A DNA stretch of 32,618 bases, from the NCBI GenBank assembly GCA_017960525.1, contig JAGCZA010000059.1, positions 1 to 32,618 on the forward strand, written 5' to 3'. Source of the stretch: Prevotella sp. Its GTDB lineage: Bacteria > Bacteroidota > Bacteroidia > Bacteroidales > Bacteroidaceae. The position numbers were made by a program, and so were the translations under genes. Below are positions 6,354 through 32,527 of the stretch, piece after piece (the first letter of the stretch is position 1; each line of letters begins with the position of its first letter). The notes below the pieces were generated by a model, which saw nothing but the letters and a program-made list of their open reading frames with translations, ran no database searches and was not told the origin of the DNA.

Positions 6354-9353
6354 TTATAGATACGAGAGGTAGAGGTAATTGGTTTGGGCAGGATATTCTG
6401 CAGCCAAGGTGTCTATCTGGTTGACGGTGGGGATGAGTCCCAGTTCTTTGCGCCATTTACGGACGGTGAGTCCTGCCTGTTCCATTTTCATCAGTTGTTC
6501 GAGGCCTATGGCGCGGGCTATCTGGAAGTCGGAGAAGCCGTAGACTTTTGCTGCTCGCAACAAGGGGTATGTGTCGGGCGACAGTAGATACTCTTTGAAC
6601 TCGCTGGGTTCCATAAACTGCGAGACTTCAGCAAGGAGGGTATGGCCCTTGAGTTGCTGGTCGATGTCGACAATGTGCTTGAGTTTCTGGAGGAACCAGC
6701 GGTCAATCATCGTCACCTGGTGAATCTGTTCGACGGTGTAACCGATTTGCAATGCTTTTGAAATAGCGAAGATGCGGGTGTCGGTCGGCGCAGCATATTG
6801 GTCAATGGTCAATGTCAAATGTTCAATGTCTTGATGGTTCTCCACAAAGCCGTGCATGCCTTGGCCAATCATACGCAAGCCCTTCTGCAGCGCTTCCTCA
6901 AAAGTGCGTCCAATGGCCATCACCTCGCCTACGCTCTTCATTGACGAGCCAAGTTCGCGTTTCACGCCGTGGAACTTGGTGAGGTCCCAGCGGGGAATCT
7001 TTACTACTACGTAATCAAGCGCAGGCTCGAAGAAGGCCGACGTGGTCTTAGTGACGCTGTTCTTCAGGTCGAAGAGTCCGTAGCCGAGCCCTAGCTTCGC
7101 AGCAACAAAGGCGAGCGGATAGCCCGTGGCTTTTGATGCCAAAGCCGACGAGCGCGACAGACGGGCGTTGACCTCGATGACGCGATAGTCCTCGCTATTG
7201 GGGTCGAGTGCATATTGCACGTTACACTCGCCCACGATGCCGATATGCCGGATAATCTTGATGGCCAGCGCACGCAGCTTATGGTACTCGCTGTTCGAGA
7301 GCGTCTGACTCGGCGCGACGACGATGCTCTCGCCCGTATGGATGCCTAACGGGTCGAAGTTCTCCATGTTGCACACGGTGATGCAGTTGTCGAAGCGGTC
7401 GCGCACCACCTCATACTCTATCTCCTTCCAGCCCTTCAGCGATTTCTCCACCAGCACCTGCGGGGAGAACGAAAAGGCCTCCTCGGCCTGTGCCAGCAGT
7501 TCCTCGTCGTTGTCGCAGAAACCGCTGCCGAGCCCGCCGAGGGCGTATGCGGCACGTAATATCACGGGGAAGCCCAGTTCGTGGGCCGCTCTTTGTACTT
7601 CCTCGATGGAAGAGCAAGCCTCACTCTTGATGGTCTTCACGCCAATCTCGTCGAGCCGTTTCACAAACAGGTCGCGGTCTTCTGTGTCGATGATGGCCTG
7701 CACAGGAGTCCCCAGCACCTCGACACCATATTTTTCTAAAACTCCCTTTTCGTAGAGTTCCACACCACAGTTCAGCGCCGTCTGTCCACCGAATGACAAC
7801 AGAATGCCGTCGGGGCGTTCCTTTTCGATGACCCGCTCCACAAACTCCGCTGTCACGGGTTGGAAATACACTGTATCAGCCACGTCTTTTGATGTCTGCA
7901 CCGTAGCGATGTTGGGATTGATGAGCACCGAGTGGATGCCTTCTTCCTTCAAGGCTTTCAGTGCCTGTGCACCCGAGTAGTCGAACTCACCGGCCTGACC
8001 AATCTTCAGGGCACCAGAGCCCAAGATGAGAACCTTCTTGAAAGCCTCCCCAAGCCCCTCCAAAGGAGGGGATGTTTGATTAGATATGTCAGAGGAATGA
8101 TGTGTCTCAACATTCCTCCCTTTGTAATTCAGCGTCGCTACAAATTCATCAAACATCCATTCAGTATCTGTCGGCCCTGAGCAGGCCTCTGGGTGAAACT
8201 GTGCCGACATCCAGGGATTCGACTTATGTCGGATACCCTCGTTCGAGCCGTCATTCATATTCACAAACAGCGGTTCCCAATCCGTAGGCAGCGTCGAGTC
8301 ATCTACCGCATAGCCGTGATTCTGACTGGTGATAAAGCAACGATTCGTACCCACCTCGCGCACCGGTTGGTTGAGCGAGCGATGGCCGTATTTCAGCTTG
8401 TACGTCTTAGCTCCAGCCGCACGAGCCAGCAGTTGGTTACCCAAGCAGATGCCCATACAAGGGCGGACAGCCTCACCCCCGGCTCCTCCCTGCGAGAGAT
8501 GGGAGCAGATAGTTTTCTTCGTCTCGTTCTCCAAGAAAGTCCTGATATGTCTCACCGTAACCTCGCATTGTTCCGGGTCGCCAGGACCGTTGGCCAAGAA
8601 AAGACCATCGAACTCCAACTGGTTGAAGTCATAATCCCATGGCACGCGTATCACCTCAATGCCGCGTTTGATTAGGCAACGGATGATGTTTGCCTTCACG
8701 CCACAGTCGACGAGAACGACCTTTTTCAGAGGTGAGGGGTGAGGGGTGAGAGGTGAGTGATTTGTATTGGGGCGATAGGTTATCACTTCCTTGCAGCTTA
8801 CCTTCTCTACCCAATTCACCGAACCGTAGTCCTCATGCACGGCTGTTCTTCTACATAGGCGGGGAGCGGCTGCACGTTCTATCTCAACGCGCCCCATCAT
8901 CACACCATGTTCGCGAAGCACTTTTGTCAGCCTGCGCGTGTCAATCCCCGTAATCGCGGGGATATGCTCCATCTTCAGCCAAGCCGCTAATGACTCCTTC
9001 ACATTCCAGTGCGAAAACTGCTCGCTATAGTCGGCCACTATCAAGCCCTTTACATGAATCCGCTCGCTCTCCATAAACACAGGGAGATTACTGATCCCGC
9101 CCCTGGCCCTCCTATCAAGGGGAAGGGTTGGGGGCTGTAATGCACCCGTTTCCGGCACCCCATAGTTCCCAATCAGCGGATAGGTCATCACCAGTATCTG
9201 CCCCGCATAGCTCGGGTCTGTCAGACTCTCAGGGTAGCCCGTCATTGCTGTGTTAAACACCACCTCGCCAGCAGTCTCACCGTCGTATCCAAACGACCAT
9301 CCGCAGAACTCCGAGCCGTCGCTGAGTATCAGTTTTGCTTGCTTTCTATCCAT
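6354..9353 (-). CDS. Carbamoyl-phosphate synthase: small chain fused to the N-terminal half of the large chain
   Basis: One 999-residue frame. Residues 1-410 are CarA, the glutamine amidotransferase chain, with Cys303 (GICLGNQ) and His387/Glu389 (QFHPE) intact. Residues 440-999 match the first half of CarB: the carboxyphosphate synthetase domain (start VLILGSGALKIGQAGEFDYS, GGQTALNCG, ENFDPLGIHTGES, SRSSALASKATG) and the oligomerisation domain, ending AAEYPAQTNYLYLSYL. In full CarB a second synthetase half and an allosteric domain follow at this exact point; here a stop comes and asnB begins. The CarB half resembles eukaryotic CAD type CPS. Start: ATG 9353 (MDRKQAK). ATG 9374 is rejected because a -7 box lies at 9363-9370. 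GC-rich in-frame segments occur near residues 69-93, 158-172, 196-209, 283-298 and at the junction 412-438. It supplies carbamoyl phosphate if functional; it could also be a second, decaying copy. Confidence 0.9.
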   Translation of the reverse strand: MDRKQAKLILSDGSEFCGWSFGYDGETAGEVVFNTAMTGYPESLTDPSYAGQILVMTYPLIGNYGVPETGALQPPTLPLDRRARGGISNLPVFMESERIHVKGLIVADYSEQFSHWNVKESLAAWLKMEHIPAITGIDTRRLTKVLREHGVMMGRVEIERAAAPRLCRRTAVHEDYGSVNWVEKVSCKEVITYRPNTNHSPLTPHPSPLKKVVLVDCGVKANIIRCLIKRGIEVIRVPWDYDFNQLEFDGLFLANGPGDPEQCEVTVRHIRTFLENETKKTICSHLSQGGAGGEAVRPCMGICLGNQLLARAAGAKTYKLKYGHRSLNQPVREVGTNRCFITSQNHGYAVDDSTLPTDWEPLFVNMNDGSNEGIRHKSNPWMSAQFHPEACSGPTDTEWMFDEFVATLNYKGRNVETHHSSDISNQTSPPLEGLGEAFKKVLILGSGALKIGQAGEFDYSGAQALKALKEEGIHSVLINPNIATVQTSKDVADTVYFQPVTAEFVERVIEKERPDGILLSFGGQTALNCGVELYEKGVLEKYGVEVLGTPVQAIIDTEDRDLFVKRLDEIGVKTIKSEACSSIEEVQRAAHELGFPVILRAAYALGGLGSGFCDNDEELLAQAEEAFSFSPQVLVEKSLKGWKEIEYEVVRDRFDNCITVCNMENFDPLGIHTGESIVVAPSQTLSNSEYHKLRALAIKIIRHIGIVGECNVQYALDPNSEDYRVIEVNARLSRSSALASKATGYPLAFVAAKLGLGYGLFDLKNSVTKTTSAFFEPALDYVVVKIPRWDLTKFHGVKRELGSSMKSVGEVMAIGRTFEEALQKGLRMIGQGMHGFVENHQDIEHLTLTIDQYAAPTDTRIFAISKALQIGYTVEQIHQVTMIDRWFLQKLKHIVDIDQQLKGHTLLAEVSQFMEPSEFKEYLLSPDTYPLLRAAKVYGFSDFQIARAIGLEQLMKMEQAGLTVRKWRKELGLIPTVNQIDTLAAEYPAQTNYLYLSYL
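8043..8127. repeat. Family B palindromic element at the carA-carB junction
   Basis: It begins GCCTCCCCAAG and contains the hairpin CCCCTCC-AAA-GGAGGGG, then a spacer, then a degraded inverted second unit (AACATTCCTCCCTTTG near 8109-8124). The gltD element has the same parts in the same order. It is translated in frame as a Ser/Pro-rich linker ([14 protein letters not shown]) between the CarA and CarB domains. Confidence 0.75.
8469..8507. repeat. GC-rich in-frame insertion in carA, just before the glutaminase nucleophile
   Basis: This stretch encodes a Ser/Gly-rich segment (CSHLSQGGAGGEAVR) between FLENETKK and PCMGICLG. As I recall Bacteroidota CarA, these two parts nearly abut. The DNA (CCCCCGGCTCCTCCCTGC then GAGAGATGGGAGC) has the same C-rich then G-rich pattern as the other elements here. 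Confidence 0.55.
8731..8758. repeat. Four tandem 7-mers inside carA
   Basis: GGTGAGG, GGTGAGG, GGTGAGA and GGTGAGT follow one another exactly at 8731-8758. On the minus strand they encode part of NHSPLTPHPSPL, a Pro-rich insert between ITYRP and KKVVLVDCG. The unit is not a multiple of three, so gain or loss of one copy would shift the frame. Confidence 0.75.
8851..8875. repeat. Truncated family A unit inside carA
   Basis: CTACATAGGCGGGGAGCGGC followed by TGCAC resembles the right end of the family A element seen in gltB (CTACAAGAGAGGGGAGCGGC, then TGCGC). It encodes RAAAPRLCR on the minus strand, at a point where CarA normally has no such segment. Confidence 0.55.
9094..9140. repeat. GC-rich in-frame insertion near the carA 5' end
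   Basis: A C-rich arm, TATCAAGG, a G-rich run (GGGGAAGGGTTGGGGG) and then CTGTAATG resemble the left half of family A elements. The translation ALQPPTLPLDRRARGGISN lies between NYGVPETG and LPVFMESE, which are much closer together in ordinary CarA. Confidence 0.55.
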
Positions 9354-9362
9354 AATTGGGCG

Positions 9363-9370
9363 CAAAATTA
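9363..9370 (-). promoter_or_regulatory. Probable -7 box for carA/carB
   Basis: On the minus strand this reads TAATTTTG, matching TAnnTTTG, and lies 9 bases before the ATG at 9353. A transcript from here has a very short leader and cannot include the in-frame ATG at 9374, so it decides the start codon. A clear -33 element is not visible. Confidence 0.55.
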
Positions 9371-9505
9371 TCAAATATTTACGACATAACTCCCTTCGCC
9401 GCCCAACTTTAAATCTACTTTTCCATTTAAAGTGACAATTTGCAATTATAATTAATATATTTAAAACAAATTGTTAACAAATATCGGCAATCTTATTTCA
9501 AAAGA

Positions 9506-9877: not shown

Positions 9878-11707
9878 TCAACTTGCGAAATAGGGTTTCC
9901 AATTTGATCTGCCCAATAATTGCTTACTGGTGGGGGGATGAGTATGGCAGTTGTCTTCGTACCAACTGACGAATGCCTGGTTGACGAGCCGAGTGCCGCC
10001 AGGCGTGGGATAGTGGCCCGTGAAATACCAGTCGCCTGGGTGGTTGGGACACGCCTCGTGCAGTCCATCGATGCTTTGGAACACCAGTTCGATGGGGGCT
10101 TGCATGTCCTTTGGGCGCAACATCTCGACAATCTTCTGATTGATTTCCTCAACGGTGAAAGGCTCGTAGATGCGCCTGACGTGATTAGCCTCCAAAGGAC
10201 GATCCTTGCATGCGCGATAAACCTCTTGGATAAGTTCCCGCCCGCTAAGGTTCCCATTCCCCTCGCTCTTTGGAGAGGGGGTGGGGGTGAGGCTTAATGC
10301 CATCGTGGCACGGAAGGCGCAGAACTCCTCTAACCGGGCCATGTCGATGCCGTAATAATCTGGATAGCGGATCTGGGGCGAACTTGACACCATAACAATC
10401 TTCTTGGGATGCAGACGGTCGAGAATCTTGAAGATGCTTTCGCGTAGTGTCGTGCCGCGGACTATCGAGTCATCGATAATCACAAGATTATCCTCGTAGG
10501 GTCGCAACGAACCGTAGCTGATGTCATAGACGTGAGCCGCCAAATCGTTGCGCTCGGTGTTGGCAGAGATAAACGTGCGTAGCTTGATGTCCTTCCACAC
10601 CACCTTCTCCGTCCGCACGTTGTAGCCCTGTTGGCGGAATCCATCGGTCATTCCGTAGTAGGCCACCTCGGCGGTGTTGGGGATATATGAAAAGACCGTG
10701 TTCTCCACATCGCCATCGATGGCTTTCAGTATGGCGGGTGTCAGCTGTTCACCAAGGCGTTTGCGCTCCTGATAGATGTCACGGTCGGAACCTCGGCTGA
10801 AGTAGATGCGCTCAAACGAGCAGGCACTCAGCTTTTGTGCAGGCATAATCTGCTCCAGATGGCTCTCTCCGTTGCGACGCACAATAAGTGCCTCGCCAGG
10901 CTTCAACTCATGAATGTTCTCACACTGGAGGTTGAACGTAGTTTGCAGCACAGGGCGTTCGCTGGCAAGGGCGATGATCTCGTCGTCGCGATAATAGAAC
11001 GCAGGACGGATGCCCCAGGAGTCGCGCACGGCAAACATCTCGCCGCTGCCCGTCAGTCCCCCCATCACGTAGCCGCCGTCGAAGTGCTCCATCGTCTTCC
11101 GCAGCACGTTGGCCATCTCCACGTGGTCGTCGATATATCGTGTGATGTCGAGCCCTTCAAGCCCCTTCGCCTTAGCCTCTTCAAACAACCGTTCCACCTC
11201 ACGGTCCAGACGGTGGCCCATCAGTTCGAGCGTGATGTACGAGTCGCCAAAGATGCGCGGTGACTGTCCTTGCGATGTCAGGAACTGAAAGACCTCGTCG
11301 ATGTTGGTCATGTTGAAGTTGCCACACAGACAGAGGTTCTTGGCGCGCCAGTTGTTACGGCGCAGGAAGGGATGCACAAACGTCAGTCCGCTCTTGCCCG
11401 TCGTCGAATAGCGCAGATGACCCATCAGCAGTTCTCCTGCCATATCCTGAGTGACACGGCTGAAAATCTCCGTGATGGCATCCTTGCCTTCAGCCTTTTC
11501 GCGGAACATATATTCCATGCCAGGTTCGTTGTTCAGACTGACGGAAGCGATACCAGCACCTTCCTGACCGCGGTTGTGCTGCTTCTCCATCATCAGATAG
11601 AGTTTGTTGAATCCGTAGGCCCACGTGCCGAACTTTTTCTCGTAGTAGTCCAACGGCTTCAGAAGGCGAATCATCGCCACGCCACATTCATGCTTTAATT
11701 GTTCCAT
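9878..11707 (-). CDS. purF: Amidophosphoribosyltransferase (PurF type)
   Basis: A 609-residue enzyme for the first step of purine synthesis: PRPP plus glutamine to phosphoribosylamine. It begins MEQLKHECGVAMI; Cys8 would be exposed as the Ntn nucleophile after removal of a 7-residue propeptide. The glutaminase part runs to about residue 250 (NRGQEGAG near 45-52). The phosphoribosyltransferase part has the PRPP loop VIIDDSIVRGTT at 409-420. It is longer than E. coli PurF (~505), as usual for this Bacteroidota form. An odd Pro/Ser/Gly segment (LTPTPSPKSEGNGN, about 473-486) comes from a GC-rich repeat. It starts 16 bases after pyrG and ends before a strong hairpin. Confidence 0.9.
   Translation of the reverse strand: MEQLKHECGVAMIRLLKPLDYYEKKFGTWAYGFNKLYLMMEKQHNRGQEGAGIASVSLNNEPGMEYMFREKAEGKDAITEIFSRVTQDMAGELLMGHLRYSTTGKSGLTFVHPFLRRNNWRAKNLCLCGNFNMTNIDEVFQFLTSQGQSPRIFGDSYITLELMGHRLDREVERLFEEAKAKGLEGLDITRYIDDHVEMANVLRKTMEHFDGGYVMGGLTGSGEMFAVRDSWGIRPAFYYRDDEIIALASERPVLQTTFNLQCENIHELKPGEALIVRRNGESHLEQIMPAQKLSACSFERIYFSRGSDRDIYQERKRLGEQLTPAILKAIDGDVENTVFSYIPNTAEVAYYGMTDGFRQQGYNVRTEKVVWKDIKLRTFISANTERNDLAAHVYDISYGSLRPYEDNLVIIDDSIVRGTTLRESIFKILDRLHPKKIVMVSSSPQIRYPDYYGIDMARLEEFCAFRATMALSLTPTPSPKSEGNGNLSGRELIQEVYRACKDRPLEANHVRRIYEPFTVEEINQKIVEMLRPKDMQAPIELVFQSIDGLHEACPNHPGDWYFTGHYPTPGGTRLVNQAFVSWYEDNCHTHPPTSKQLLGRSNWKPYFAS
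10250..10292. repeat. GC-rich palindromic insertion inside purF
   Basis: On the minus strand the DNA runs CTCACCCCCACCCCCTCTCC, then AAAG, then AGCGAGGGGAATGGG: a C-rich arm facing a G-rich arm, like a family A half unit. It is translated in frame as LTPTPSPKSEGNGN between the conserved FRATMA and LIQEVYRAC segments. Confidence 0.6.
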
Positions 11708-15898: not shown

Positions 15899-15997
15899 AT
15901 GAGGATACCCCGCTTTATATATGCTGTTCACAAGAAGTTAGGACATTCTGACGCTTGGGTATCAGTCAGACCATTTGCTCTGCTGAACGATGCCTGA
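15899..15997 (+). CDS. Possible 32-residue leader ORF overlapping the methylase start
   Basis: The frame begins at ATG 15899 (MRIPRFIYAVHKK), continues LGHSDAWVSVRPFALLNDA, and stops at TGA 15995-15997, 8 bases into the methylase gene (ATG 15990). The residue pattern looks protein-like and the overlap would allow translational coupling. I do not recognise a family. It may be a short coupling peptide, the end of a former upstream gene, or chance. Confidence 0.3.
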   Translation: MRIPRFIYAVHKKLGHSDAWVSVRPFALLNDA

Positions 15998-20800: not shown

Positions 20801-21163
20801 AAGAAGATGGTGGATTTACTGGAACAGGAGAATCCACATATCTTCGAAGATCCTAAGAAGACATTTGCCGACCTCTATATGAAATCTGGCCTATATATTA
20901 CAGAGATTGTGCGCCGACTATATAATAACGTAGAGATGTGCCGCCAGATTCCAGACAATCATGAGCGTATTCAGCACATACTAATGCATCAAGTCTATGG
21001 GTTTGCTCCCACGCGCATTATCTATCTAATCGCAACTCGCTACATCCTCGGCTTCGCCCCGTCATTCCAGCCAGAACAGAGCAATTTCCGACAGGTTGAC
21101 ACCGTTCCCTACTCCAAAGAAGGACGGATGGAAGAACTCATAGAAAAGGAGTTTGGACTTTAA
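17855..21163 (+). CDS. Restriction subunit: GIY-YIG nuclease, SF2 helicase and degenerate methylase tail
   Basis: A 1102-residue multidomain protein. Residues ~15-100 resemble a T5orf172-type GIY-YIG nuclease: IYAY (17-20), KIGDTE (33-38), KRI with Arg44, and TEWF with Glu95. Residues ~120-560 are a superfamily 2 DNA translocase: Walker A AKPRFGKT (155-162), DESH (275-278), a SGTP motif III, and QAAFRAQNP near 530. Residues ~760-855 are charged and heptad-rich, probably coiled coil. The C-terminus (~975-1080) repeats the opening of a DNA methylase: IFTPKWVVKKMV (motif X) and FADLYMKSGLYI (motif I position, with MKSG for the usual CGSG), but no NPPY. It probably cuts unmodified DNA with translocation, guided by the partner methylase. 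The start overlaps the methylase stop by 4 bases, or 1 if the second Met is used. Confidence 0.87.
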   Translation: MMDATRIHSFNSFVRMIYAYRTPEIARHNGWLKIGDTEQGVHKRIKQQTHTADVRFELEWKDIAMFRDDCTYFRDHDFHDYLTEYKGIERNDHTEWFRIDGQELRRCFEEFVSRDYQQKGLHYSYKLRDEQQRAVDMTLDYLKANNVEGKFLWNAKPRFGKTLTAYDLIKQMKARKVLIVTNRPSIANSWYDDYEKYLAGQSGYRFVSDNESLRDRQGVMTRNMYSEWVRHRDENFAGQICFESLQGLKGSVYFGGNFNKLEWIKNTRWDMLIVDESHEGVDTIRTDRAFNNIQRKFTLYLSGTPFKAIASGEFGNRQIFNWSYADEQDAKETWASDNHNPYENMPRLNLFTYRMSDIVREQVKQGMDLDEEGMIDYAFDLNEFFKTKEDGKFEHEADVRKFLKALTTQEKFPFSTEELRKEMAHTFWLMPNRVDCAKAMAKLLREPGSGFEDYKVVLAAGDGKMDDNDETIKAYNKVKDAIAHHSKTITLSIGQLATGVTIPEWSGVLMLSNMQSAQLYMQAAFRAQNPYEYFEGGKIVRKENAYVFDFDPARTLMLYDEFANNLKRSTASGRGTTEERKQNIKQLLNFFPVIAEDEEGQMMQIDERQVLSIPRKIKCEEVVRRGFMSNLLFRNIANIFSAPSIVGEILKKLDKAHEERGRNTGTNLDEAGNMSVDDNGEVMIPEEVIIGQEQQIFGDKLYQTFEEIEDEIPMAAESADQVLTAINRVGDSLKAAVEQNIINPASEEYELTQVQTKLIVRDSQKELETKIEKIKGDFEQQRKIAEVKHKEAIKHASNERELEDAEKTFRKEMESALKGVNDAIKEATNDIITNKPKEVIERIEKDKEERKKASVEDEVRAHLRGFARTIPSFIMAYDDGNLTLDNFDKNIEDEVFKEVTSITLEEFRFLRDGGDYVNVETGRKEHFNGHLFDEVVFDDAIAEFRKKRQELANYFDESQTEDIFDYIPPQKTNQIFTPKWVVKKMVDLLEQENPHIFEDPKKTFADLYMKSGLYITEIVRRLYNNVEMCRQIPDNHERIQHILMHQVYGFAPTRIIYLIATRYILGFAPSFQPEQSNFRQVDTVPYSKEGRMEELIEKEFGL

Positions 21164-23536: not shown

Positions 23537-26500
23537 ATGACAAAACGTAAACTTCAAACATCGAAAAGGTTGCAAACAGAAGCATATTCGCAGCAAGGGC
23601 TTTACCAGAGCCAGTACGAGCATGATGCTTGCGGCGTGGGAATGGTTGTTAACATTCACGGCGGCAAGAGTCACGAACTGGTTGACAATGCGCTGAGGGT
23701 GCTGGAAAACATGGAACATCGCGGTGCTGAGACTCGCGACAAGACGGGCGACGGCGCCGGTATCATGGTGCAGATTCCGCACGAGTTTATCCTTTTGCAG
23801 GGTATCCCCGTGCCTGAGAAGGGTAAGTACGGCACCGGTCTGGTATTCCTGCCGAAAGATGCCCAGGCCCAGCAGGAGATTCTGAGCGTGATGATTGAAG
23901 AGATAGAGCGTGAGGGACTGCTGCTTATGCACCTTAGGGCCGTGCCCACAAGCCCAGAAGTGCTGGGTGCTGCTGCACGCGAGGTGGAACCTGACATTAA
24001 GCAGGTGTTCGTGACTGGAATATCTGACGAACAGGTGCCAGTATTCGAGCGTATATTATATAAGGTGCGCAAAAGGATTGAAAACCGCATCGACAACGAG
24101 GACTTTTATATCTGCTCGTTGTCTAACAAAAATATCATCTATAAGGGTATGCTGACCAGCGGACAACTGCGTCGCTATTTCCCAGACCTGTCGAATGATT
24201 ACTTCACAAGCGGACTGGCGCTGGTGCACTCCCGTTTCAGCACAAACACATTCCCCAAATGGAAGCTGGCCCAGCCTTTCCGCTTGTTAGCCCACAACGG
24301 CGAGATCAACACCATTCGCGGTAATCGCGGTTGGATGAAGGCCCGTGAGAGTGTGCTGAACAGCGAGGCTTTGGGCGACATCAAGGATTTGCGCCCAATC
24401 GTGCAGGAGGGTATGAGCGACTCAGCATCGCTGGACAATGTGTTTGAGTTCCTGATGCTCAGTGGCCTCTCATTACCGCAGGCTATGGCTATCCTGGTGC
24501 CAGAGAGTTTTAACGACAAGAACCCCATCAGCGAGGATCTGAAGGCGTTCTATGAGTATCACTCCATCCTGATGGAGCCATGGGACGGCCCTGCTGCGCT
24601 GTTGTTTAGCGATGGTCGCTATGCCGGCGGTATGCTGGACAGAAACGGTCTGCGCCCTAGCCGTTATACGATTACGAAACAGGGTATGATGGTTGTGGCC
24701 AGCGAGGTGGGCGTGATGGACTTTGAGCCTGGCGATGTGGTGTCGAAGGGCCGTCTGCAGCCAGGCAAGATTCTGCTGATTGACACACAGGAAGGTAAGA
24801 TTTACTACGATGGCGAGATAAAGGAGCAGTTGGCCAAGGCACATCCCTACCGCGAGTGGCTTAATGAGAATCGCGTGCAGTTGGAGAAGCTGAAGAGCGG
24901 TCGCCACGTGGTTAACTCGGTGAGCAATTACGAGCAGAAACTCGTCACCTTCGGCTTTGGCCAGGAGGACATCGACAAGACCATTGTTCCTATGGCGACA
25001 GCAGGTCAAGAACCCGTGGCTGCGATGGGTAACGACACACCGTTAGCAGTCATCTCAGACCGTCCGCAGGTGCTGTTCAACTACTTCCGTCAGCAGTTTG
25101 CACAGGTGACGAATCCTGCCATTGACCCGATTCGCGAGGAACTGGTGATGAGTCTGACGGAGTATATCGGAGCTGTAGGTACTAACATTCTGACGCCCGA
25201 TGCATCAAACTGTAAGATGGTGCGACTGCCCCAGCCTGTGCTGACTAACACACAACTCGACATTTTATGTAACATACGCTATAAGGGATTCAACACCAAG
25301 AAACTCTCCATTCTCTTCGAAATGAGTAAGGGCGAGGAGGGCTTGCGTCAGGCTTTGGATGATCTGTGTCATCAGGCCGAGGCTAGTGTGGACGAAGGTG
25401 TGAATTACATCATCCTCTCTGACCGCGATCTCGACGACAAGCATGCTGCCGTCCCGTCGCTACTGGCTGTAAGTGCCGTTCACCATTATCTGATTAGCGT
25501 GGGCAAGCGCGTACAGACCGCCTTGATTGTGGAAAGCGGAGAGATTCGCGAGGTGATGCACGCAGCCCTGCTGCTGGGCTATGGTGCCAGTGCCCTCTGC
25601 CCATATATGACATTCGCCATCCTCGACAATCTGGTGAAGCAACACAAGATTCAGGAGGATTACGCAACAGCTGAGACCCACTATATCAAGGCAGTGGATA
25701 AAGGTCTGAAGAAGATTATGTCGAAGATGGGTATCTCGACTATCCGCAGCTATCGTGGCGCCAAGATTTTCGAGAGCATCGGACTAAGCGAAGACCTGCT
25801 GAGAAGGTACTTCGGAACAGAGGTGAGCACCATAGGAGGTGTTGGATTGAAGGAGATTGCTCGCGATGCTATTGCCTTTAGTCGTTTGGGGATGTCACAG
25901 ACAGCAATTGGTAATCTTCCTAAACGACCAAACGACCAAACGACCTATCTGCCAAATAATGGTCAGTTTGCTTGGCGCAAGGATGGCATCAAGCACGCCT
26001 GGAACCCAGAGACCATCGCCCAATTGCAGCTGGCCACCCGTCAGGGCAACTACGAGAAGTTCAAGCAGTGGTCGGCCATCGTCGACGAGAAGGAATCGCC
26101 AATCTTCATCCGTGACTTCTTCAAATTCAAGAAGGCAGCCAAGCCTACGCCTATCGACGAAGTGGAGCCAGTTGAGAGCATTGTGAAGCACTTCGTGACA
26201 GGTGCCATGAGTTTTGGTGCATTAAGCATCGAGGCCCACGAGGCGCTGGCACTGGCCATGAACAAACTGGGCACACGCAGTAATACTGGCGAGGGTGGTG
26301 AGGACAACGCCCGCTATCACTCAGAGGTGGATGGCGTCAGTCTGAGTTCAAAGACCAAGCAAATCGCTTCAGGACGTTTTGGCGTGACAGCCGAATATCT
26401 GGTGAATGCCGAGGAGATACAAATCAAGGTGGCACAGGGTGCCAAGCCTGGTGAGGGCGGACAGCTGCCCGGCTTCAAGGTCAACGAGATTATTGCCAAG

Positions 26501-28231
26501 ACGCGTAACGCCATCCCTGGCATCTCGCTCATCTCGCCGCCGCCTCATCACGACATCTACTCGATTGAGGACCTGGCGCAGCTCATCTTCGACCTGAAGA
26601 ATATCAATCCCACGGCTGCCGTCAGCGTGAAGCTTGTGGCCGAGAGCGGGGTGGGAACCATTGCCGCAGGTGTGGCAAAGGCCAAGGCCGACTTGATTGT
26701 TATCAGCGGTGCCGAGGGTGGTACGGGTGCCAGCCCTGCCTCAAGTATGCGATTCGCAGGTATCTCGCCTGAGATTGGACTCGCCGAGACGCAGCAGACG
26801 CTGGTGATCAACGGTCTGCGTAATCAGGTTCGCCTGCAGACCGACGGACAGCTTAAGACCGCCAAGGATGTGATTATTATGGCGATGTTGGGTGCCGACG
26901 AGTTCTCGTTTGGCACGCTGCCGCTGATTGTACTGGGCTGCGTGATGATGCGTAAGTGTAATACAAATACCTGTCCGATGGGTGTCGCTACCCAGAATCC
27001 CGAGCTGCGCAAGCATTTCGAGGGGCGTGCTGAGTACGTAGTGAACTTCTTCTCCTTCCTGGCAGAGCAGGTGCGCGAGTATCTGAGTGAGATAGGGGTG
27101 CACAGTCTCAAAGAAATCATTGGTCACACAGAGCTCATCAAGGTTAGTGTGCCCGACGGTTCCGCCGTCGAGAAATGGAAGACCATCGACTTCAGCCGTT
27201 TGCTTTTTAAACCCGACGTCGACCATCGCGCAGCCACTCCCCTCCCTTCAAGGGGAGGGACATGGGGTGGGGGCTGTGACTCCAACTCCACTACAGCGAA
27301 AGATACTGACCCCATCCCCAACCCCTCCCCTACAAGAGAGGGGAGCGGCTGCGCCCTCTATTGGGATTGTGGCACATTCACCAAGGTCAGCGGCGTAAAG
27401 GACGAAGAGATCATCCGCGCAGCGCAGAAAGCTATCGACAATCAAGAAGAGGTGACGCTCGACTACGCCATCAAGAATACAGACCGTGCTGTTACTACTA
27501 TGCTCTCTGGTGTCATCGCCAAGAAATACGGCGAAGCCGGCCTGCCCGACAATACGATTAACATCAAGTTCAAGGGTTCTGCAGGACAGAGTTTCGGAGC
27601 CTTTGCCGTTCACGGACTGAACCTGAAACTCGAGGGCGAGTGTAACGACTACTTTGGCAAGGGACTCTCAGGTGGTCGCATCTCGATTCTCCCTCCAGCC
27701 CGAAGCGGTGAGGACTTCCATGCCGAGGACAACATCATCGCTGGTAACACCGGCCTCTACGGTGCCACGAGCGGCGAAATCTACATCAACGGTAAGGTCG
27801 GCGAGCGCTTTGGTGTGCGTAATTCTGGAGCCATTGCCGTCATCGAGGGCGCAGGTGACCACTGCTGCGAGTATATGACTGGTGGACGTGTGGTGGTGCT
27901 GGGCGATACAGGTCGTAATTTCGCTGCCGGTATGAGTGGTGGTGTGGCCTACGTTTGGGATCGCAAGCACAACTTCGACTACTTCTGCAACATGGATATG
28001 GTTGAAATCAACCTGGTTGAGGACAGCGTATCGCGTAAGGAACTGCTCGAACTCATCCGTCAACACTATCTGCATACAGGTTCTGCCCTGGCAGGACGTA
28101 TGCTCGACAATTGGAACCGCTACTGCGAGGAGTTCGTACAGGTAGTGCCTATCGAGTACAAGCGTGTGCTGCAGGAAGAGCAGAACAAGAAGCTCCAGGA
28201 GAAGATTGCCAACATCCAGAGAGACTACTGA
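23537..28231 (+). CDS. gltB: Glutamate synthase, large subunit
   Basis: A 1564-residue GOGAT large chain that makes glutamate from glutamine and 2-oxoglutarate. The N-terminal Ntn glutaminase has Cys32 (EHDACGVGM) as nucleophile after a ~31-residue propeptide. The central and FMN-binding synthase domains follow, with the 3Fe-4S cysteines in CVMMRKCNTNTC (around 26938-26973). The C-terminal GXGXG beta-helix domain runs from about residue 1310. It is longer than the usual ~1500. Part of the excess is a GC-rich repeat translated at about residues 1231-1273 (ATPLPSRGGTWGGG... PNPSPTREGSG), between the synthase and beta-helix domains. A triplet of an 8-bp unit encodes residues 796-803. First gene of gltB-gltD-dapF-dapL. 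Confidence 0.95.
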   Translation: MTKRKLQTSKRLQTEAYSQQGLYQSQYEHDACGVGMVVNIHGGKSHELVDNALRVLENMEHRGAETRDKTGDGAGIMVQIPHEFILLQGIPVPEKGKYGTGLVFLPKDAQAQQEILSVMIEEIEREGLLLMHLRAVPTSPEVLGAAAREVEPDIKQVFVTGISDEQVPVFERILYKVRKRIENRIDNEDFYICSLSNKNIIYKGMLTSGQLRRYFPDLSNDYFTSGLALVHSRFSTNTFPKWKLAQPFRLLAHNGEINTIRGNRGWMKARESVLNSEALGDIKDLRPIVQEGMSDSASLDNVFEFLMLSGLSLPQAMAILVPESFNDKNPISEDLKAFYEYHSILMEPWDGPAALLFSDGRYAGGMLDRNGLRPSRYTITKQGMMVVASEVGVMDFEPGDVVSKGRLQPGKILLIDTQEGKIYYDGEIKEQLAKAHPYREWLNENRVQLEKLKSGRHVVNSVSNYEQKLVTFGFGQEDIDKTIVPMATAGQEPVAAMGNDTPLAVISDRPQVLFNYFRQQFAQVTNPAIDPIREELVMSLTEYIGAVGTNILTPDASNCKMVRLPQPVLTNTQLDILCNIRYKGFNTKKLSILFEMSKGEEGLRQALDDLCHQAEASVDEGVNYIILSDRDLDDKHAAVPSLLAVSAVHHYLISVGKRVQTALIVESGEIREVMHAALLLGYGASALCPYMTFAILDNLVKQHKIQEDYATAETHYIKAVDKGLKKIMSKMGISTIRSYRGAKIFESIGLSEDLLRRYFGTEVSTIGGVGLKEIARDAIAFSRLGMSQTAIGNLPKRPNDQTTYLPNNGQFAWRKDGIKHAWNPETIAQLQLATRQGNYEKFKQWSAIVDEKESPIFIRDFFKFKKAAKPTPIDEVEPVESIVKHFVTGAMSFGALSIEAHEALALAMNKLGTRSNTGEGGEDNARYHSEVDGVSLSSKTKQIASGRFGVTAEYLVNAEEIQIKVAQGAKPGEGGQLPGFKVNEIIAKTRNAIPGISLISPPPHHDIYSIEDLAQLIFDLKNINPTAAVSVKLVAESGVGTIAAGVAKAKADLIVISGAEGGTGASPASSMRFAGISPEIGLAETQQTLVINGLRNQVRLQTDGQLKTAKDVIIMAMLGADEFSFGTLPLIVLGCVMMRKCNTNTCPMGVATQNPELRKHFEGRAEYVVNFFSFLAEQVREYLSEIGVHSLKEIIGHTELIKVSVPDGSAVEKWKTIDFSRLLFKPDVDHRAATPLPSRGGTWGGGCDSNSTTAKDTDPIPNPSPTREGSGCALYWDCGTFTKVSGVKDEEIIRAAQKAIDNQEEVTLDYAIKNTDRAVTTMLSGVIAKKYGEAGLPDNTINIKFKGSAGQSFGAFAVHGLNLKLEGECNDYFGKGLSGGRISILPPARSGEDFHAEDNIIAGNTGLYGATSGEIYINGKVGERFGVRNSGAIAVIEGAGDHCCEYMTGGRVVVLGDTGRNFAAGMSGGVAYVWDRKHNFDYFCNMDMVEINLVEDSVSRKELLELIRQHYLHTGSALAGRMLDNWNRYCEEFVQVVPIEYKRVLQEEQNKKLQEKIANIQRDY
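25922..25945. repeat. Three tandem copies of an 8-bp unit inside gltB
   Basis: AAACGACC occurs three times without interruption. It encodes KRPNDQTT, using all three frames of the unit, just before LPNNGQFAWRKDG. Loss or gain of one unit would shift the gltB frame. Confidence 0.8.
27228..27354. repeat. Family A inverted-pair element inside gltB
   Basis: It starts GCGCAGCCACTCCCCTCC and ends GGGGAGCGGCTGCGC, so the ends are inverted copies. Each half contains its own small palindrome (CCCCTCCC...GGGGAGGG). A spacer with AGCGAAAGATACTGACCCC separates the halves. The intergenic copies at 32051 and 32261 have the same layout, including GAGAAAGATACT.ACCCCA. The element is open in the gltB frame. 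Confidence 0.85.
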
Positions 28232-28233
28232 TA

Positions 28234-28382
28234 TGGATTTACGGTTTGACGATGTACTATTTACGATTTATTTTTCAATTTAACTATTGTGTTATTTCGC
28301 GGATAGAATTCTGAAAATCGTCAAATCAATCAAATCGTAAATAAATTGTAAATCGAAAATTTGTAAATAGTAAATAACCGAG
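28234..28382. repeat. AT-rich GTAAATCG-type repeats between gltB and gltD
   Basis: ATTTACGATTTA near 28260 faces AAATCGTAAAT near 28335, and two further GTAAAT(C/A)G units follow before the gltD start. The inverted arrangement could fold into a hairpin between the two genes. The same words fill two other intra-operon spacers in the window. Confidence 0.55.
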
Positions 28383-29813
28383 ATGGGAAATCCAAAAGCA
28401 TTTTTAGAGATACATCGCCAGGAGGCGGGTTACCGTCCGATTCACGATAGAATCCACGACTTCGGCGAGGTAGAGCAGACACTTAGCACCCGCGAACGCA
28501 AACTGCAGGCCTCGCGCTGTATGGACTGCGGCGTGCCTTTCTGCCACTGGGCTTGTCCGCTGGGCAACAAAGCGCCCGAATGGAATGACGCGCTGTATAA
28601 AGGTGACTGGGAGTTGGCTTACCGCTTGCTGAATAGTACTAACCCCTTCCCAGAGTTCACCGGTCGTATCTGTCCTGCGCTCTGCGAGAAGGCCTGTGTG
28701 CTGAACCGCTTCAACCACGAGCCCACCACCAACCGCGAGGACGAGGCCGCTATCACCGAGGCTGCCTTCCGCGAGGGGTACATCCAGCCCCGCACCGACA
28801 TCAAGCGCAATGGTAAGAAGGTGGCTGTTATTGGTTCAGGCCCTGCCGGACTTGCCGCTGCCAACGACCTGAACTTGATGGGCTACAAGGTAACAGTATT
28901 CGAGAAAAATGAGGCCGCAGGCGGTCTTCTACGCTACGGCATCCCCAACTTCAAGCTGAACAAGGCCATCATCGACCGTCGCATCAAGTTGTTGGAGGCT
29001 GAGGGCATAGAGTTTAAGTATGGAGTAGAAGCCTCCCCAAGCTCCTCCAAAGGAGGGGGTGTTGAGATACACATATCGCCTAATTATTCTGTGTCATCAT
29101 CCAACCAAACATCCCCTCCTTTGGAGGGGCTTGGGGAGGCCTTCGACGCCGTCGTCCTCGCCACCGGCACCCCAACCGCCCGCGACCTTAAGGCCCCAGG
29201 CCGCGACCTGAAGGGCGTACACTTCGCCCTCGAGTTGCTCTCTCAGCAAAACCAAGTTCTCGCTGGTATGGAGTTTGGTAAGGACGAGCGCATCACAGCC
29301 AAAGGCAAGGACGTTCTCGTCATCGGCGGCGGTGACACCGGCTCCGACTGTATTGGTACTGCCCACAGACAGGGCTGCAAGAGTGTGACTCAGATTGAGA
29401 TTATGCCGAAGCCCGTTGAGGGACCTGAGGATCCGCAGAACCCCTGGCCCAACTGGCCTCGCACCCTCAAGACCACCTCAAGTCACGAGGAAGGTTGTAC
29501 CCGCCGTTGGAACATCAACACTCTGGAGTTCTTAGGCGAGCATGGCAAACTGACTGGTGTGAAGGTACAGGAAATAGACTGGAATCCGAATCCCAACGGT
29601 GGTCGCCCCATTATGGTTGAGAAAGGCAAACCTGAGATTATCAAGGCTGAACTCGTCCTCCTCGCTATGGGCTTCCTAAAGCCTGAACATCCTGAATACC
29701 CAGAGAACGTCTTTGTTTGCGGTGACTCTGCCAACGGTGCTTCGCTTGTAGTTCGTGCTATGGCCAGTGGCAAACAGACAGCAATTAAGGTAAACTATTA
29801 TCTTTCAAAATGA
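28383..29813 (+). CDS. gltD: Glutamate synthase, small subunit
   Basis: A 476-residue FAD/iron-sulfur subunit that passes electrons from NADPH to GltB. The N-terminal 4Fe-4S cysteines are at 46, 49, 54 and 58 ([13 protein letters not shown]) and 97, 101 and 105 (CPALCEKAC). The FAD site [14 protein letters not shown] is at 147-160 and the NADPH site [13 protein letters not shown] near 310-322. Residues ~217-253 are an extra segment (SPSSSKGGG ... [14 protein letters not shown]) encoded by a palindromic element of 37 codons, placed within the nucleotide-binding fold. The stop overlaps dapF by 4 bases. It is separated from gltB by 151 bases of repeat-rich DNA. Confidence 0.96.
29031..29141. repeat. 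Family B inverted-pair element inside gltD, 111 bp
   Basis: The ends are perfect 11-bp inverted repeats, GCCTCCCCAAG and CTTGGGGAGGC. Each half carries a small hairpin: CTCCTCC-AAA-GGAGGGG (left) and CCCCTCC-TTT-GGAGGGG (right). Between them is a ~50-base AT-richer spacer. The length is 111 bases, exactly 37 codons, so the gltD frame is kept. The carA-carB junction element is a relative. Confidence 0.85.
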
Positions 29814-30715
29814 GCAAGATCAGATTCACCAAGATGCACGGCTGCGGCAACGACTATATCTACGTCGATACCATGCAGTACCCCATCGCCGACCCCGTCC
29901 AGGCATCCATCCTTTGGAGCGACCGCCACAAGGGCATTGGCAGCGACGGACTGGTACTCATTGGCACGTCTCCCATCCCTGAGGCCGACTACAGCATGCG
30001 CATCTTTAATGCCGACGGCTCCGAGGCGATGATGTGCGGCAATGCCTCACGGTGTATCGGGAAGTATCTCTATGAGCGCGGAATCACAACACAAACACAA
30101 ATTCGCCTGCTGACCAAATCGGGAGTAAAAATTCTGAAGTTGAACATCGCGCAGCCGCTCCCCTCTGAACCCTGCCCTTACGGGGTGGGGGCGGAGGTGG
30201 GGGTTGTATCTTCCATCACCGTTGACATGGGCGAGCCTGTTCTGGTGGACGAGAAGCTCTTCCTGCCCAATCGTGGCCTCGACAAGGGAGTATTCGTATC
30301 AATGGGCAATCCCCACTACGTCATCTTCACAGACAATGTGGACCAGGTAGGAGAGACGGGACGTAAATTAGAGCTTCATCCAGCTTTTCCACGACGCTGT
30401 AATATCGAGTTCGCACAAGTTACTGACTCCACTCCCAACACCTTCCCTACAAGGGAGAGGAGCGGATGCAGCATTATTCGCACTCGCGTCTGGGAGCGTG
30501 GCAGCGGCGTCACTCAAGCTTGTGGTACAGGTGCCTGCGCAACAGCAGTTGCCGCTTTTATCACGGGTCGCGCTAGTCGTCAGTCACAGATTGTTATGGA
30601 TGGCGGTACACTCAACATCGAACTGCGTGAGAGTGACAATCACGTCTATATGACAGGCCCCGCTGAATTCGTCTTCGACGGTTTCATTGAACTGCCCGAC
30701 GCGCAGTCAAATTAG
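29810..30715 (+). CDS. dapF: Diaminopimelate epimerase
   Basis: A 301-residue cofactor-free epimerase that converts LL- to meso-diaminopimelate for lysine and peptidoglycan. The two catalytic cysteines are Cys76 (MMCGNASRC) and Cys238 (QACGTGACA); the N-terminal [12 protein letters not shown] is typical. It is longer than the usual ~275. Two extra segments, residues ~114-131 ([18 protein letters not shown]) and ~206-220 ([15 protein letters not shown]), are encoded by GC-rich half elements of family A. It overlaps gltD by 4 bases (ATGA) and is followed by dapL after 31 bases. Confidence 0.94.
30149..30208. repeat. Left half of a family A element inside dapF
   Basis: It starts GCGCAGCCGCTCCCCTC, as in the gltB and intergenic elements, and even shares the preceding CATC with the gltB copy. 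It then runs into G-rich sequence (GGGGTGGGGGCGGAGGTGGG). It is translated in frame near residues 114-131. Confidence 0.75.
30422..30472. repeat. Right half of a family A element inside dapF
   Basis: ACTGACTCCACTCCCAACAC, then CCTACAAGGGAGAGGAGCGG, then ATGCAGC, follows the right half of the gltB element (ACTGACCCCATCCCCAACCC ... GGGGAGCGGCTGCGC) with few changes. It lies 213 bases after the left-half copy, with normal dapF sequence between. Confidence 0.7.
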
Positions 30716-30746
30716 TAAATCGAAAATTCGTAAATCGTAAATAGAA
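30716..30746. repeat. AT-rich GTAAATCG-type spacer repeat between dapF and dapL
   Basis: The 31-base spacer is TAAATCG, AAAATTCG, TAAATCG, TAAATAG in series, ending just before the dapL ATG. It is the third spacer in the window built from these words. Confidence 0.6.
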
Positions 30747-31979
30747 ATGGCATTAGTAAATATCCACTTCCTGAACCTCCAGAACAACTACCTGTTCGCC
30801 GACATCGCCAAAAAGGTCAACGCCTTTAAGGTGATGCACCCGGGTGCCGACGTCATCAGTCTCGGCATTGGCGACGTCACCCAACCGCTGTGTCCTGCTG
30901 TCACCGAGGCTATGCACAAGGCTGTCGATGAGATGGCTACCGCCGGAGGTTTTCACGGCTATGGTCCTGAGCAGGGCTACGACTTCCTGCGCGAGGCCAT
31001 CCTGAAAAATGACTTCCTGCCACGTGGCATCCACCTTGACATCGACGAGGTCTTCATCAACGACGGTGCGAAGTCCGACACGGGCAATTTCCAGGAACTG
31101 CTACATTGGGACAACTTCATCGGCGTGACAGACCCCATCTATCCCGTCTATATCGACTCCAACGTGATGATAGGCCGCTGCGGCAGCTATCGCGACGGGC
31201 GATGGACCAATGTGCGCTATATGCCCACTAATGCAGAGAACGGCTTTGTGCCAGACCTTCCCAAGGGTCGTCCAGTCGATGTCATATACCTCTGCTATCC
31301 CAACAATCCCACGGGTACGGTCATCACCAAGCAGGAACTGCGCAAGTGGGTGAACTACGCCCTGAAAAACGACGCCCTCATCCTCTACGATGCCGCCTAC
31401 CAGGCCTATATCCAAGACCCGAAGATACCGCATTCCATCTACGAGATTCGAGGTGCCCGCAAGTGTGCCGTCGAGTTCCGCTCGTATTCTAAGACGGCCG
31501 GTTTTACGGGCGTCCGCTGCGGCTATACCATCGTACCGAAGGAGGTCACCGTCAGCACCTTCGAGGGCGAGCGTATATCGCTCAACCAGCTGTGGCTGCG
31601 TCGCCAGTGTACGAAGTTCAACGGCTGCAGCTATATCAGTCAGCGTGCCGCCGAGGCTATCTATACGCCAGGGGGCAAGCAACAGATCAAGGCCACCATC
31701 GACTATTACATGCAGAACGCCACGAAGATGCTCACTACGCTGCGCTCCCTCGGCTATGAGTGCTACGGCGGCGAGAATGCTCCCTACGTCTGGATGCGCT
31801 GCCCCGACGGTATGTCGTCCTGGCAGTTCTTCGAGGCCCTGCTCTACGGTGCCAACGTCGTCTGCACCCCCGGCGTCGGCTTTGGTCCCTCCGGCGAGGG
31901 CTACGTCCGCTTCACCGCCTTCGGCAGTCACGAGAAAACAGAAGAAGCATTACAACGCATCAAGGCTTGGAGCAAATAA
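30747..31979 (+). CDS. dapL: LL-diaminopimelate aminotransferase
   Basis: A 410-residue PLP enzyme that makes LL-diaminopimelate from tetrahydrodipicolinate using glutamate as amino donor, skipping the acylated steps of the succinylase route. The PLP lysine is Lys249 (RSYSKTAGFTGVRCGY); CYPNNPTG (183-190) and LYDAAY (213-218) supply cofactor contacts. GDVTQPL (42-48) and the GFHGYGPEQGY segment (68-78) are typical of DapL. Its product is the DapF substrate, and its amino donor is made by the GltBD encoded just upstream, so the operon is metabolically coherent. A terminator overlaps the stop codon. Confidence 0.95.
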   Translation: MALVNIHFLNLQNNYLFADIAKKVNAFKVMHPGADVISLGIGDVTQPLCPAVTEAMHKAVDEMATAGGFHGYGPEQGYDFLREAILKNDFLPRGIHLDIDEVFINDGAKSDTGNFQELLHWDNFIGVTDPIYPVYIDSNVMIGRCGSYRDGRWTNVRYMPTNAENGFVPDLPKGRPVDVIYLCYPNNPTGTVITKQELRKWVNYALKNDALILYDAAYQAYIQDPKIPHSIYEIRGARKCAVEFRSYSKTAGFTGVRCGYTIVPKEVTVSTFEGERISLNQLWLRRQCTKFNGCSYISQRAAEAIYTPGGKQQIKATIDYYMQNATKMLTTLRSLGYECYGGENAPYVWMRCPDGMSSWQFFEALLYGANVVCTPGVGFGPSGEGYVRFTAFGSHEKTEEALQRIKAWSK

Positions 31980-31999
31980 CATCCAAGCCTTTTTATTTT
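31962..31999 (+). terminator. Intrinsic terminator overlapping the dapL stop codon
   Basis: A perfect 10-bp stem, AAGGCTTGGA (31962-31971) and TCCAAGCCTT (31982-31991), with a 10-base loop that includes the TAA stop, followed by TTTATTTT. The left arm encodes the last residues of DapL. Confidence 0.88.
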
Positions 32000-32050
32000 C
32001 ACCTCGCGGCATTAATAAATTAAGGTAGTTCTATAAATTGAAAAAAACAA

Positions 32051-32215
32051 CGCGCAGCCGCTCCCCTCCCATCCGCTCGGCCCTTTGGGGAAGCTTGCTA
32101 CCAACGGGACGCAAGAAGGGGAGGGGGAGGGGGTGGGCCTGTATTATCCTGTTTCAGAGAAAGATACTGACCCCACCCCTAACCCCTCCCCTACAAGGGA
32201 TGGGAGTTGCTGCGC
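32051..32215. repeat. Family A inverted-pair element, intergenic copy 1
   Basis: It starts GCGCAGCCGCTCCCCTCCCA and ends GATGGGAGTTGCTGCGC. Spacer: CTGTATTATCCTGTTTCAG, then AGAAAGATACTGACCCC. The loop of the left half carries an extra ~45 bases (from GCTCGGCCC to GCAAGAAGG) not present in copy 2. The flanks TTCTATAAATTGAA and ACAATTTATCGAATTAA are shared with copy 2. Confidence 0.85.
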
Positions 32216-32260
32216 ACAATTTATCGAATTAAGGTATGTTCTATAAATTGAAGAAACAAC

Positions 32261-32431
32261 GCGCAGCCGCTCCCCTCCCATCCAAGGGGAGGGGTAGGGG
32301 TGGGGTCTGTATTATCCTCTTTCAGAGAAAGATACTAACCCCAACCCCAACCCCGGCTTCGCCCTACCTTTGCTTTGTTCCCCAATTGCTCCCTCCTCGC
32401 AATTGCCTACAAGGGAGGGGAGTTGCTGCGC
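32261..32431. repeat. Family A inverted-pair element, intergenic copy 2
   Basis: It has the same start (GCGCAGCCGCTCCCCTCCCA), the same spacer (CTGTATTATCCTCTTTCAG) and the same end (GGAGTTGCTGCGC) as copy 1. Here the extra sequence lies in the right-half loop (GGCTTCGCCC ... CGCAATTGC). Because the flanks are also duplicated, the two copies form a tandem repeat of about 210 bases. Confidence 0.85.
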
Positions 32432-32527
32432 ACAATTTATCGAATTAATAGTAATTATCTTAAAAAGGTGGGGAGAAAGAGAATATCTTTGGAAAAATTT
32501 TCGACCTGTAAGGTTGAAAAGTACGTT

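Follow-up and report, generated by a model that had tools for sequence, protein, structure and literature searches.

A triplex-motif palindrome pair, in frame in a glutamate synthase gene of Prevotella and repeated between genes, resembles Rickettsia palindromic elements in its behavior

Introduction

Palindromic elements that sit in frame within protein-coding genes are, to our knowledge, known mainly from Rickettsia and Wolbachia. We describe here an inverted pair of palindromic half-units in a Prevotella contig of 32,618 nucleotides (JAGCZA010000059.1, assembly GCA_017960525.1), hereafter the window, where one copy lies in frame within gltB, the gene for the large chain of glutamate synthase, and larger copies lie between genes. 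In its behavior this triplex-motif pair in a protein gene of the Bacteroidota is like the Rickettsia palindromic elements (RPE); its DNA class is a known but different one. The window is one entire contig of a draft genome of 3.97 Mb in 146 contigs. Its host is a Prevotella-like species whose nearest named relatives are metagenome-assembled genomes of Prevotella, mostly ruminant, and it is probably a rumen bacterium.

RPE and the palindromic elements of Wolbachia (WPE) are described as palindromes of 100-150 bp that occur both between genes and in frame in conserved proteins, with several kinds near one site (PMC2229807, PMC3767692). The Prevotella element shares this layout and behavior, being multi-copy, present in and between genes, in frame in gltB and absent from most orthologs; it differs in belonging to another phylum and in its G/C-rich, triplex-type arms. 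Loss of repeat identity over time has been described for RPE (PMC6649704), whereas the arms of the gltB copy remain similar. The triplex motifs of Escherichia coli, TMECO/PIT, consist of a C-rich stem, a short loop, a G-rich stem, a short loop and a second G-rich stem, come in two subtypes, and sometimes form close inverted pairs of unlike subtypes; in strain MG1655 they are given as always intergenic and not found with transposons (PMC4666352). The Prevotella half-unit likewise has three blocks and two subtypes and occurs mostly as unlike inverted pairs. However, its stem is not the TMECO consensus, its subtypes are defined by another loop, its pairs lie within elements like miniature inverted-repeat transposable elements (MITEs) and in frame in gltB, and gltD holds a triplex-type palindrome.

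MITEs, including BrickBuilt of P. gingivalis, are matched by one set of our composites, termed type A below, in flanking arms and matching 4-bp flanks; on the other hand, no autonomous partner was found among the end matches inspected, and the gltB core occurs without MITE ends. PARCEL is a protein-coding palindromic repeat that spread between genes and forms tandem 25-residue amphipathic domains (PMC2996958). The Prevotella inserts are also palindromic repeats in coding sequence but, by inspection, are apparently single and Pro/Gly/Ser-rich. REPINs, doublets of repetitive extragenic palindromic (REP) sequences, are inverted palindrome pairs around a spacer (PMC3116915); the Prevotella element differs in lacking a GTAG foot, in occurring not only outside genes, and in that no partner REP-associated tyrosine transposase (RAYT) was found. 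In the literature searched, mostly at the level of titles and the first lines of abstracts and mostly outside subscription journals, we recognized no description, for Prevotella or any other member of the Bacteroidota, of triplex-type or palindromic inserts that keep the frame.

Results

An in-frame insertion in gltB

The gene and its insert are as follows.
23537..28231, + strand: gltB, glutamate synthase large chain, with the insert between the Glu_synthase and GXGXG domains
27228..27354, + strand: inverted half-unit pair in gltB (arms 27228-27277 and 27305-27354, spacer 27278-27304), translated as RAATPLPSRGGTWGGGCDSNSTTAKDTDPIPNPSPTREGSGC

The gltB copy measures 127 bp and consists of two 50-bp arms, 78% complementary, separated by 27 bp, which bears out the inverted palindrome pair around a spacer that an earlier note on this DNA had described. 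The closest GltB proteins of the genus align in two pieces, at 1-95 and 138/139-207, and roughly one codon separates them. Where relatives read GAC AAG GCC CTC TAT TGG, the window reads GAC, 43 codons, then GCC CTC TAT TGG, a net gain of 126 bp that keeps the frame. The insert falls in the gap between two alignable parts of solved glutamate synthases.

The insertion site could be parsed in 70 of 80 relatives. A constant 18-residue spacing was found in 65 of these, and inserts of three kinds in the other five: RUI320 and RGIG3782 have the core seen in the window, L150 and L152 have a VAIER-type insert, and L155 has another kind (labels beginning with L, G or C are ours). G020 likewise has a VAIER-type insert at this site. 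Most relatives thus have no segment there, and a native segment of the same length, the alternative raised in the earlier note, did not appear among them. The same core reappears elsewhere in gltB of G034, in frame and with the same 16-base spacer stretch, about 450-480 residues upstream; at that upstream position the half-unit model finds no match in gltB of the window. The spacer sequence CTGTGACTCCAACTCC has its sole exact match in gltB, among the own-genome matches listed. The idea that other parts of the own genome hold a separate spacer subfamily was rejected, as matches to CTGTGACTCCAACTCC at up to three mismatches were at or below control among those listed. Since the element leaves the reading frame intact, GltB as made by the cell probably includes a translated stretch of apparently mobile DNA.

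A dispersed family, often within MITE-like composites

In the own genome the 15-base end GCGCAGCCRCTCCCC has 41 matches at no more than one mismatch, against 2 for the reversed control. A covariance model of the half-unit, with 55 positions and built from 17 half-units, gave at least 122 matches there at E<=1, a lower bound because just 150 of 1290 candidates were scored; the counts below for ten relative genomes are lower bounds likewise. The family is therefore not restricted to a few copies, an outcome that the earlier note had left to a genome search. All genomes are drafts that may hide genes, and several copies of the element sit at contig ends.

Half-units of the own genome group into 75 distinct clusters in the loci examined. 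Most copies are intergenic, and many form the core of MITE-like elements. An open frame extending at least 25 codons to each side encloses 14 of the 75, a count that for most of them stands without comparison to relatives. By outer context, 15 clusters are of type A (GGTATGTTCTATAAATTGAAGAAACAAC ... ATTAATAGAAATCATC), 17 of type B and 43 of other kinds. Two type A composites lie in the window.
32024..32228, + strand: intergenic type A composite, copy 1, with its right end merged with copy 2 and a nested insert inside
32233..32459, + strand: intergenic type A composite, copy 2, with flanking TTAA at 32229-32232 and 32460-32463

All three positions that the earlier note gave for the element were confirmed, the gltB copy at its 127 bp, but the intergenic copies proved larger, copy 2 running over 32233-32459, as they include outer arms that have no counterpart in gltB. 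Complete type A copies number eight, and six combine flanking ends with matching 4-bp flanks, as MITEs do (TTAA four times, TGAA and TAGA once each). No autonomous type A element that could serve as a source was found among the inspected end matches (16 at up to three mismatches); two further sites held no full element, and transposases were not searched there.

RUI320 has another MITE-like composite, whose 19-bp end gives 30 matches at up to two mismatches and none in the control. Half-unit matches at E<=1e-6 numbered at least 72 in RUI320, at least 137 in Tb.RUG.323 (many with identical scores), at least 4 in Tb.RUG.318, at least 3 in RGIG3782 (two of which are its gltB copy) and at least 1 in RGIG6733.

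Some smaller features accompany the copies. The intergenic copies of the window contain two further short nested sequences, at 32075-32115 and 32355-32405, the first of which (GCTCGGCCC...CGCAAG) is nearly matched in RGIG3782 (L239). Arrays of GTTTGGACGAACCAAACT-like units come after the type B copies at L001, L005, L019, L028 and L030. Nineteen clusters face outward, and all ten that were printed (L098, L105, L108, L113, L117, L121, L123, L124, L125 and L130) have flanks like CAACTTTTCGAATAAGACGAAAAC immediately after TTTGCAGC or a close variant, possibly an element of 5' untranslated regions. TTTGC is a promoter box of the Bacteroidota.

Triplex architecture of the half-unit

The half-unit is laid out as CTCCCCTCCC-loop-GGGGAGGGG-loop-GGGGTGGGG, the arrangement of a three-block class II intrastrand triplex motif. 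A triplex test, which asks for a pyrimidine stem, a purine stem and a mirror third strand joined by short loops, was passed by 72 of the 85 best half-units, those scoring at least 30 and covering the middle of the model. Not one of the 1700 mononucleotide shuffles passed it. In a 400-kb sample there were 6 triplex motifs with stems of at least 8, and in its shuffle there were none. The loop distinguishes two half types, a and b. Unlike partners are joined in 19 of 25 classified pairs and like ones in 6, with 7 pairs unclassified. A G-quadruplex motif occurs in 66 of the 85 halves and in 0.6% of shuffles. As judged from its sequence, the half-unit fits the class of G/C-rich intrastrand triplex motifs.

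A known RNA family was sought and set aside, as the window has no Rfam match at gathering scores. The open frame compatible with insertion that the earlier note attributed to the element turned out to be a weak signal, since the five intact copies have 2.2 of 6 frames open and shuffles 1.6 of 6, an excess too slight for a special open frame.

Other in-frame segments in the window

Apart from the pair itself, which the earlier note did see, that note had overlooked the triplex architecture, the MITE-like context and the segments listed here along with the genes gltD and dapF.
28383..29813, + strand: gltD, glutamate synthase small chain
29031..29140, + strand: in-frame triplex-type palindrome in gltD, 110 bp, with arms of 33 bp, 94% complementary
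29810..30715, + strand: dapF, diaminopimelate epimerase
30149..30212, + strand: eroded half-unit, in frame in dapF, 37 bits by the half-unit model
30417..30472, - strand: second eroded half-unit, in frame in dapF and inverted, 33 bits by the half-unit model
9081..9146, - strand: extra segment in carA, an eroded half-unit (GALQPPTLPLDRRARGGISNLP), 24 bits, E 0.016
8823..8888, - strand: segment in carA, a weak half-unit of 12 bits, about four codons longer than in three relatives
8460..8522, - strand: extra segment in carA, TKKTICSHLSQGGAGGEAVRP
8040..8129, - strand: carA-carB linker, with an arm like that of the gltD insert; its length differs among relatives
10250..10294, - strand: triplex-type segment SLTPTPSPKSEGNGN in a PurF-like gene, named by inspection and without a Pfam match

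The two dapF half-units are separated by 204 bp. The extra segments of carA were judged against three relatives with an alignable carA. The gltD insert, the carA-carB linker and the PurF-like segment are triplex-type on at least one strand; the half-unit model misses all three, so they are the same kind of DNA and not demonstrably the same family.

From anchor to anchor the GltD loop spans 26-54 residues in 75 proteins. Of its 23 long versions, 17 form a better fold than 99 or more of 100 dinucleotide shuffles and 10 qualify as triplex-type on at least one strand. The loops of L158, L168 and L202 carry A/T-rich palindromic inserts (RMKSEE...SLFTLHSS), and unrelated palindromes therefore use one site. 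The GltB and GltD sites are each used repeatedly by differing inserts. Strong in-frame hairpins number 6 in the 400-kb sample plus window, 2 of them in the window, and strong hairpins elsewhere number 24; the window is richer than the sample.

In the frame at 6354-9374 on the - strand, carA is fused, by domains, with the N-terminal half of carB, as it is in relatives, and G000:C24 has a carB-like frame of 1091 codons. A fusion caused by the element was rejected, as the fused frame also occurs in relatives without this linker arm.

Discussion

A probably mobile pair that may enter genes in frame

We consider it reasonably probable that the element is a non-autonomous triplex-motif pair that behaves like the Rickettsia palindromic elements. 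Ends and 4-bp flanks of the kind seen in type A suggest a transposase of the cut-and-paste sort, which would presumably move these elements in trans. The bare core would have entered genes, a minority of pairs landing in frame in conserved enzymes, and the in-gene copies would survive where a loop or inter-domain linker tolerates the added residues. Such tolerance explains most simply how copies persist inside genes, and the effect of the insert on the protein may be near neutral. The earlier note's comparison with RPE is upheld in that the element occurs both between genes and in frame in a conserved gene, and is absent at the gltB site from 65 of the 70 parsed relatives.

A number of results weigh against this reading. 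No transposase could be tied to any element type, no target duplication was resolved at the gltB insert, and five of the ten relatives searched have no half-unit match at E<=1e-6 among the matches listed. Triplex formation by the half-unit is a prediction, made with criteria looser than the published E. coli TMECO pattern (stems of 7-12 nt, a second loop of 1-6 and one mismatch). The right arm of gltB passes the triplex test weakly, the dapF halves pass only when two mismatches are allowed, and all three carA segments and 13 of the 23 long GltD loops fail it. The half-unit model misses the gltD, linker and PurF-like segments, as noted, and folding of the DapF loops is mostly no better than that of shuffled sequence (at <=1/100, 0 of 3 and 3 of 13). 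Outside the window, the sample has 4 strong in-frame hairpins per 400 kb, of which at least one is apparently spurious. Finally, pure tolerance does not predict the DNA-level conservation of the gltB arms described below.

If true, in-frame palindromes in glutamate synthase of a gut genus from another phylum would mean that the phenomenon is not bound to reduced intracellular genomes. They also join two separate literatures, one on intrastrand triplex motifs, which are described as intergenic and have no known spreading route, and one on mobile coding palindromes. With so many Prevotella species sequenced, neutrality, mobility and selection of such inserts can be tested against one another.

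One arrival at the gltB site or several

An insert with this core was found in gltB of just 3 of 398 genus genomes at E<=1e-50, a search in which carriers in incomplete genomes may be missed. The carriers are the own genome, G221 and G096, the latter two identical in coordinates with RUI320 and RGIG3782. A single ancestral insertion, inherited vertically and lost in most lineages, is possible rather than probable in our estimate; the question is one of history and is independent of the other alternatives. It agrees with the shared junction, shared orientation and related spacers of the three inserts, and with upstream third codon positions that are closer among carriers than to most rows, a closeness that the non-carriers L151 and L153 share.

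Trees were built with the insert removed, from the whole region (46 of 78 usable rows, being the nearest 45 plus L149, with L152 not placed) and from its two halves (77 of 86 candidates), which are overlapping data; in none of the free trees did the three carriers form a clade. By the approximately unbiased (AU) test, a single carrier clade was rejected on the whole region (p 0.0046) and was not rejected on either half alone (p 0.083 and 0.10). The nearest relatives of the upstream and downstream parts of gltB differ, which makes recombination or paralogy likely, and the whole-region test is weakened by this conflict of signal. The rarity of the insert across the genus also speaks against a single origin, and repeated arrival at the gltB site is favored. 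Two gltB paralogs occur in several Prevotella genomes (L148/L160, L152/L153 and G034:C35/C19).

In the GltD tree, which holds 73 of 75 rows, none of five insert groups forms one side of a branch. The AU test rejected a single clade in one group (p 0.0138) but not in three others (p 0.28-0.42); L178 was lost from the tree, so its family was tested with two rows.

Conservation of the arms as DNA

In pairwise comparison of the three gltB inserts, 7, 9 and 5 of the 100 arm sites are different. At third codon positions 1, 3 and 2 of 33 are changed in the arms, as against 58, 74 and 59 of 164 in the flanks (Fisher p 5e-5, 6e-5 and 3.5e-4; the pairs share data), and with so few such changes the likeness of the arms is at the level of DNA, not of protein. 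The spacer differs at 4, 12 and 11 of 27 sites across the three pairs, so that arms and spacer compare at p 0.24 for the window and RUI320 and at p 7e-5 and 1e-5 for the other two. The inserts in GltD of L163, L178 and L184 contain two or three base pairs in which both sides have changed and the pairing is still Watson-Crick (permutation p 0.02-0.04, the pairs sharing data).

Two stronger interpretations draw on these figures. By the broader one, Prevotella has a class of coding mobile DNA made up of triplex-type palindromes, which time and again, and in separate lineages, enter one position in loops of GltB and GltD, enzymes central to nitrogen metabolism, and do so in frame, the arms then being held as DNA while the protein diverges, so that they would be homing-like or functionally kept and not decaying selfish debris; we regard this as doubtful at present. 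By the other, the arms are selected as DNA or RNA, whether as triplex, G-quadruplex or hairpin in gene or message, and the copies inside genes persist because they serve some purpose, for instance a pause between domains. The scarcity of third-position changes, the contrast of arms with spacer in two of the three pairs, the paired changes in GltD and the enrichment of the G-quadruplex motif over shuffles agree with it. It is nonetheless unlikely, for there are three sequences per family, the two arms inside one gltB copy are alike at just 39-44 of 50 positions, the gltD pair of the window and L218 has no Watson-Crick double change (p 0.16), and the gltB insert is missing from most relatives. 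Were the inserts recent arrivals from repeats whose arms are uniform and whose spacers vary, the arms would look just as they would under selection on DNA or RNA.

Possible locally formed hairpins

Template switching during replication can be imagined to create palindromes in tolerant loops, with no mobility involved. The A/T-rich and simple-repeat palindromes that likewise lie in the GltD loop, together with the paired changes in GltD arms, are what such a process would leave, and the A/T-rich GltD inserts may have arisen in this way. As an account of the core family it is insufficient and quite improbable, because the gltB insert belongs to a dispersed family of at least 122 half-unit matches and the same spacer stretch recurs at the other gltB site, in G034.

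Improbable mobilization by a RAYT transposase

Single-strand transposition is not expected to leave matching target flanks, such as those of the type A elements. A REP doublet mobilized by a RAYT (Y1/HUH) transposase, as the earlier note had proposed, is very improbable: an inverted, multi-copy palindrome pair around a spacer would suit it, and transposases of this sort are described to include a class that is rich in Bacteroidetes and has atypical structures (PMC6006769), but the own genome has one weak Y1_Tnp match (32 bits; G000:C28, L079), to which these repeats are not adjacent, RUI320 has none at E<=0.001 despite its many half-units, RGIG6733 has a strong one with a single half-unit and P. 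communis three with no half-unit, both among the matches listed, and the halves start with GCGCAGCC and have no GTAG foot, GTAG occurring only inside the loop of one half type. Neither that foot nor a cognate RAYT with the same flanking repeats was found, the flanks of the Y1 gene being inspected in the own genome only, so the search for a RAYT gene that the earlier note had called for yielded none tied to these repeats. The own Y1_Tnp gene adjoins another palindrome, CCCAGGGCATCGCCCTGG.

A further locus of the window, at 15990-21163, has an Eco57I-type methylase gene adjoining a gene with ResIII and T5orf172 domains, possibly a restriction or defense locus.

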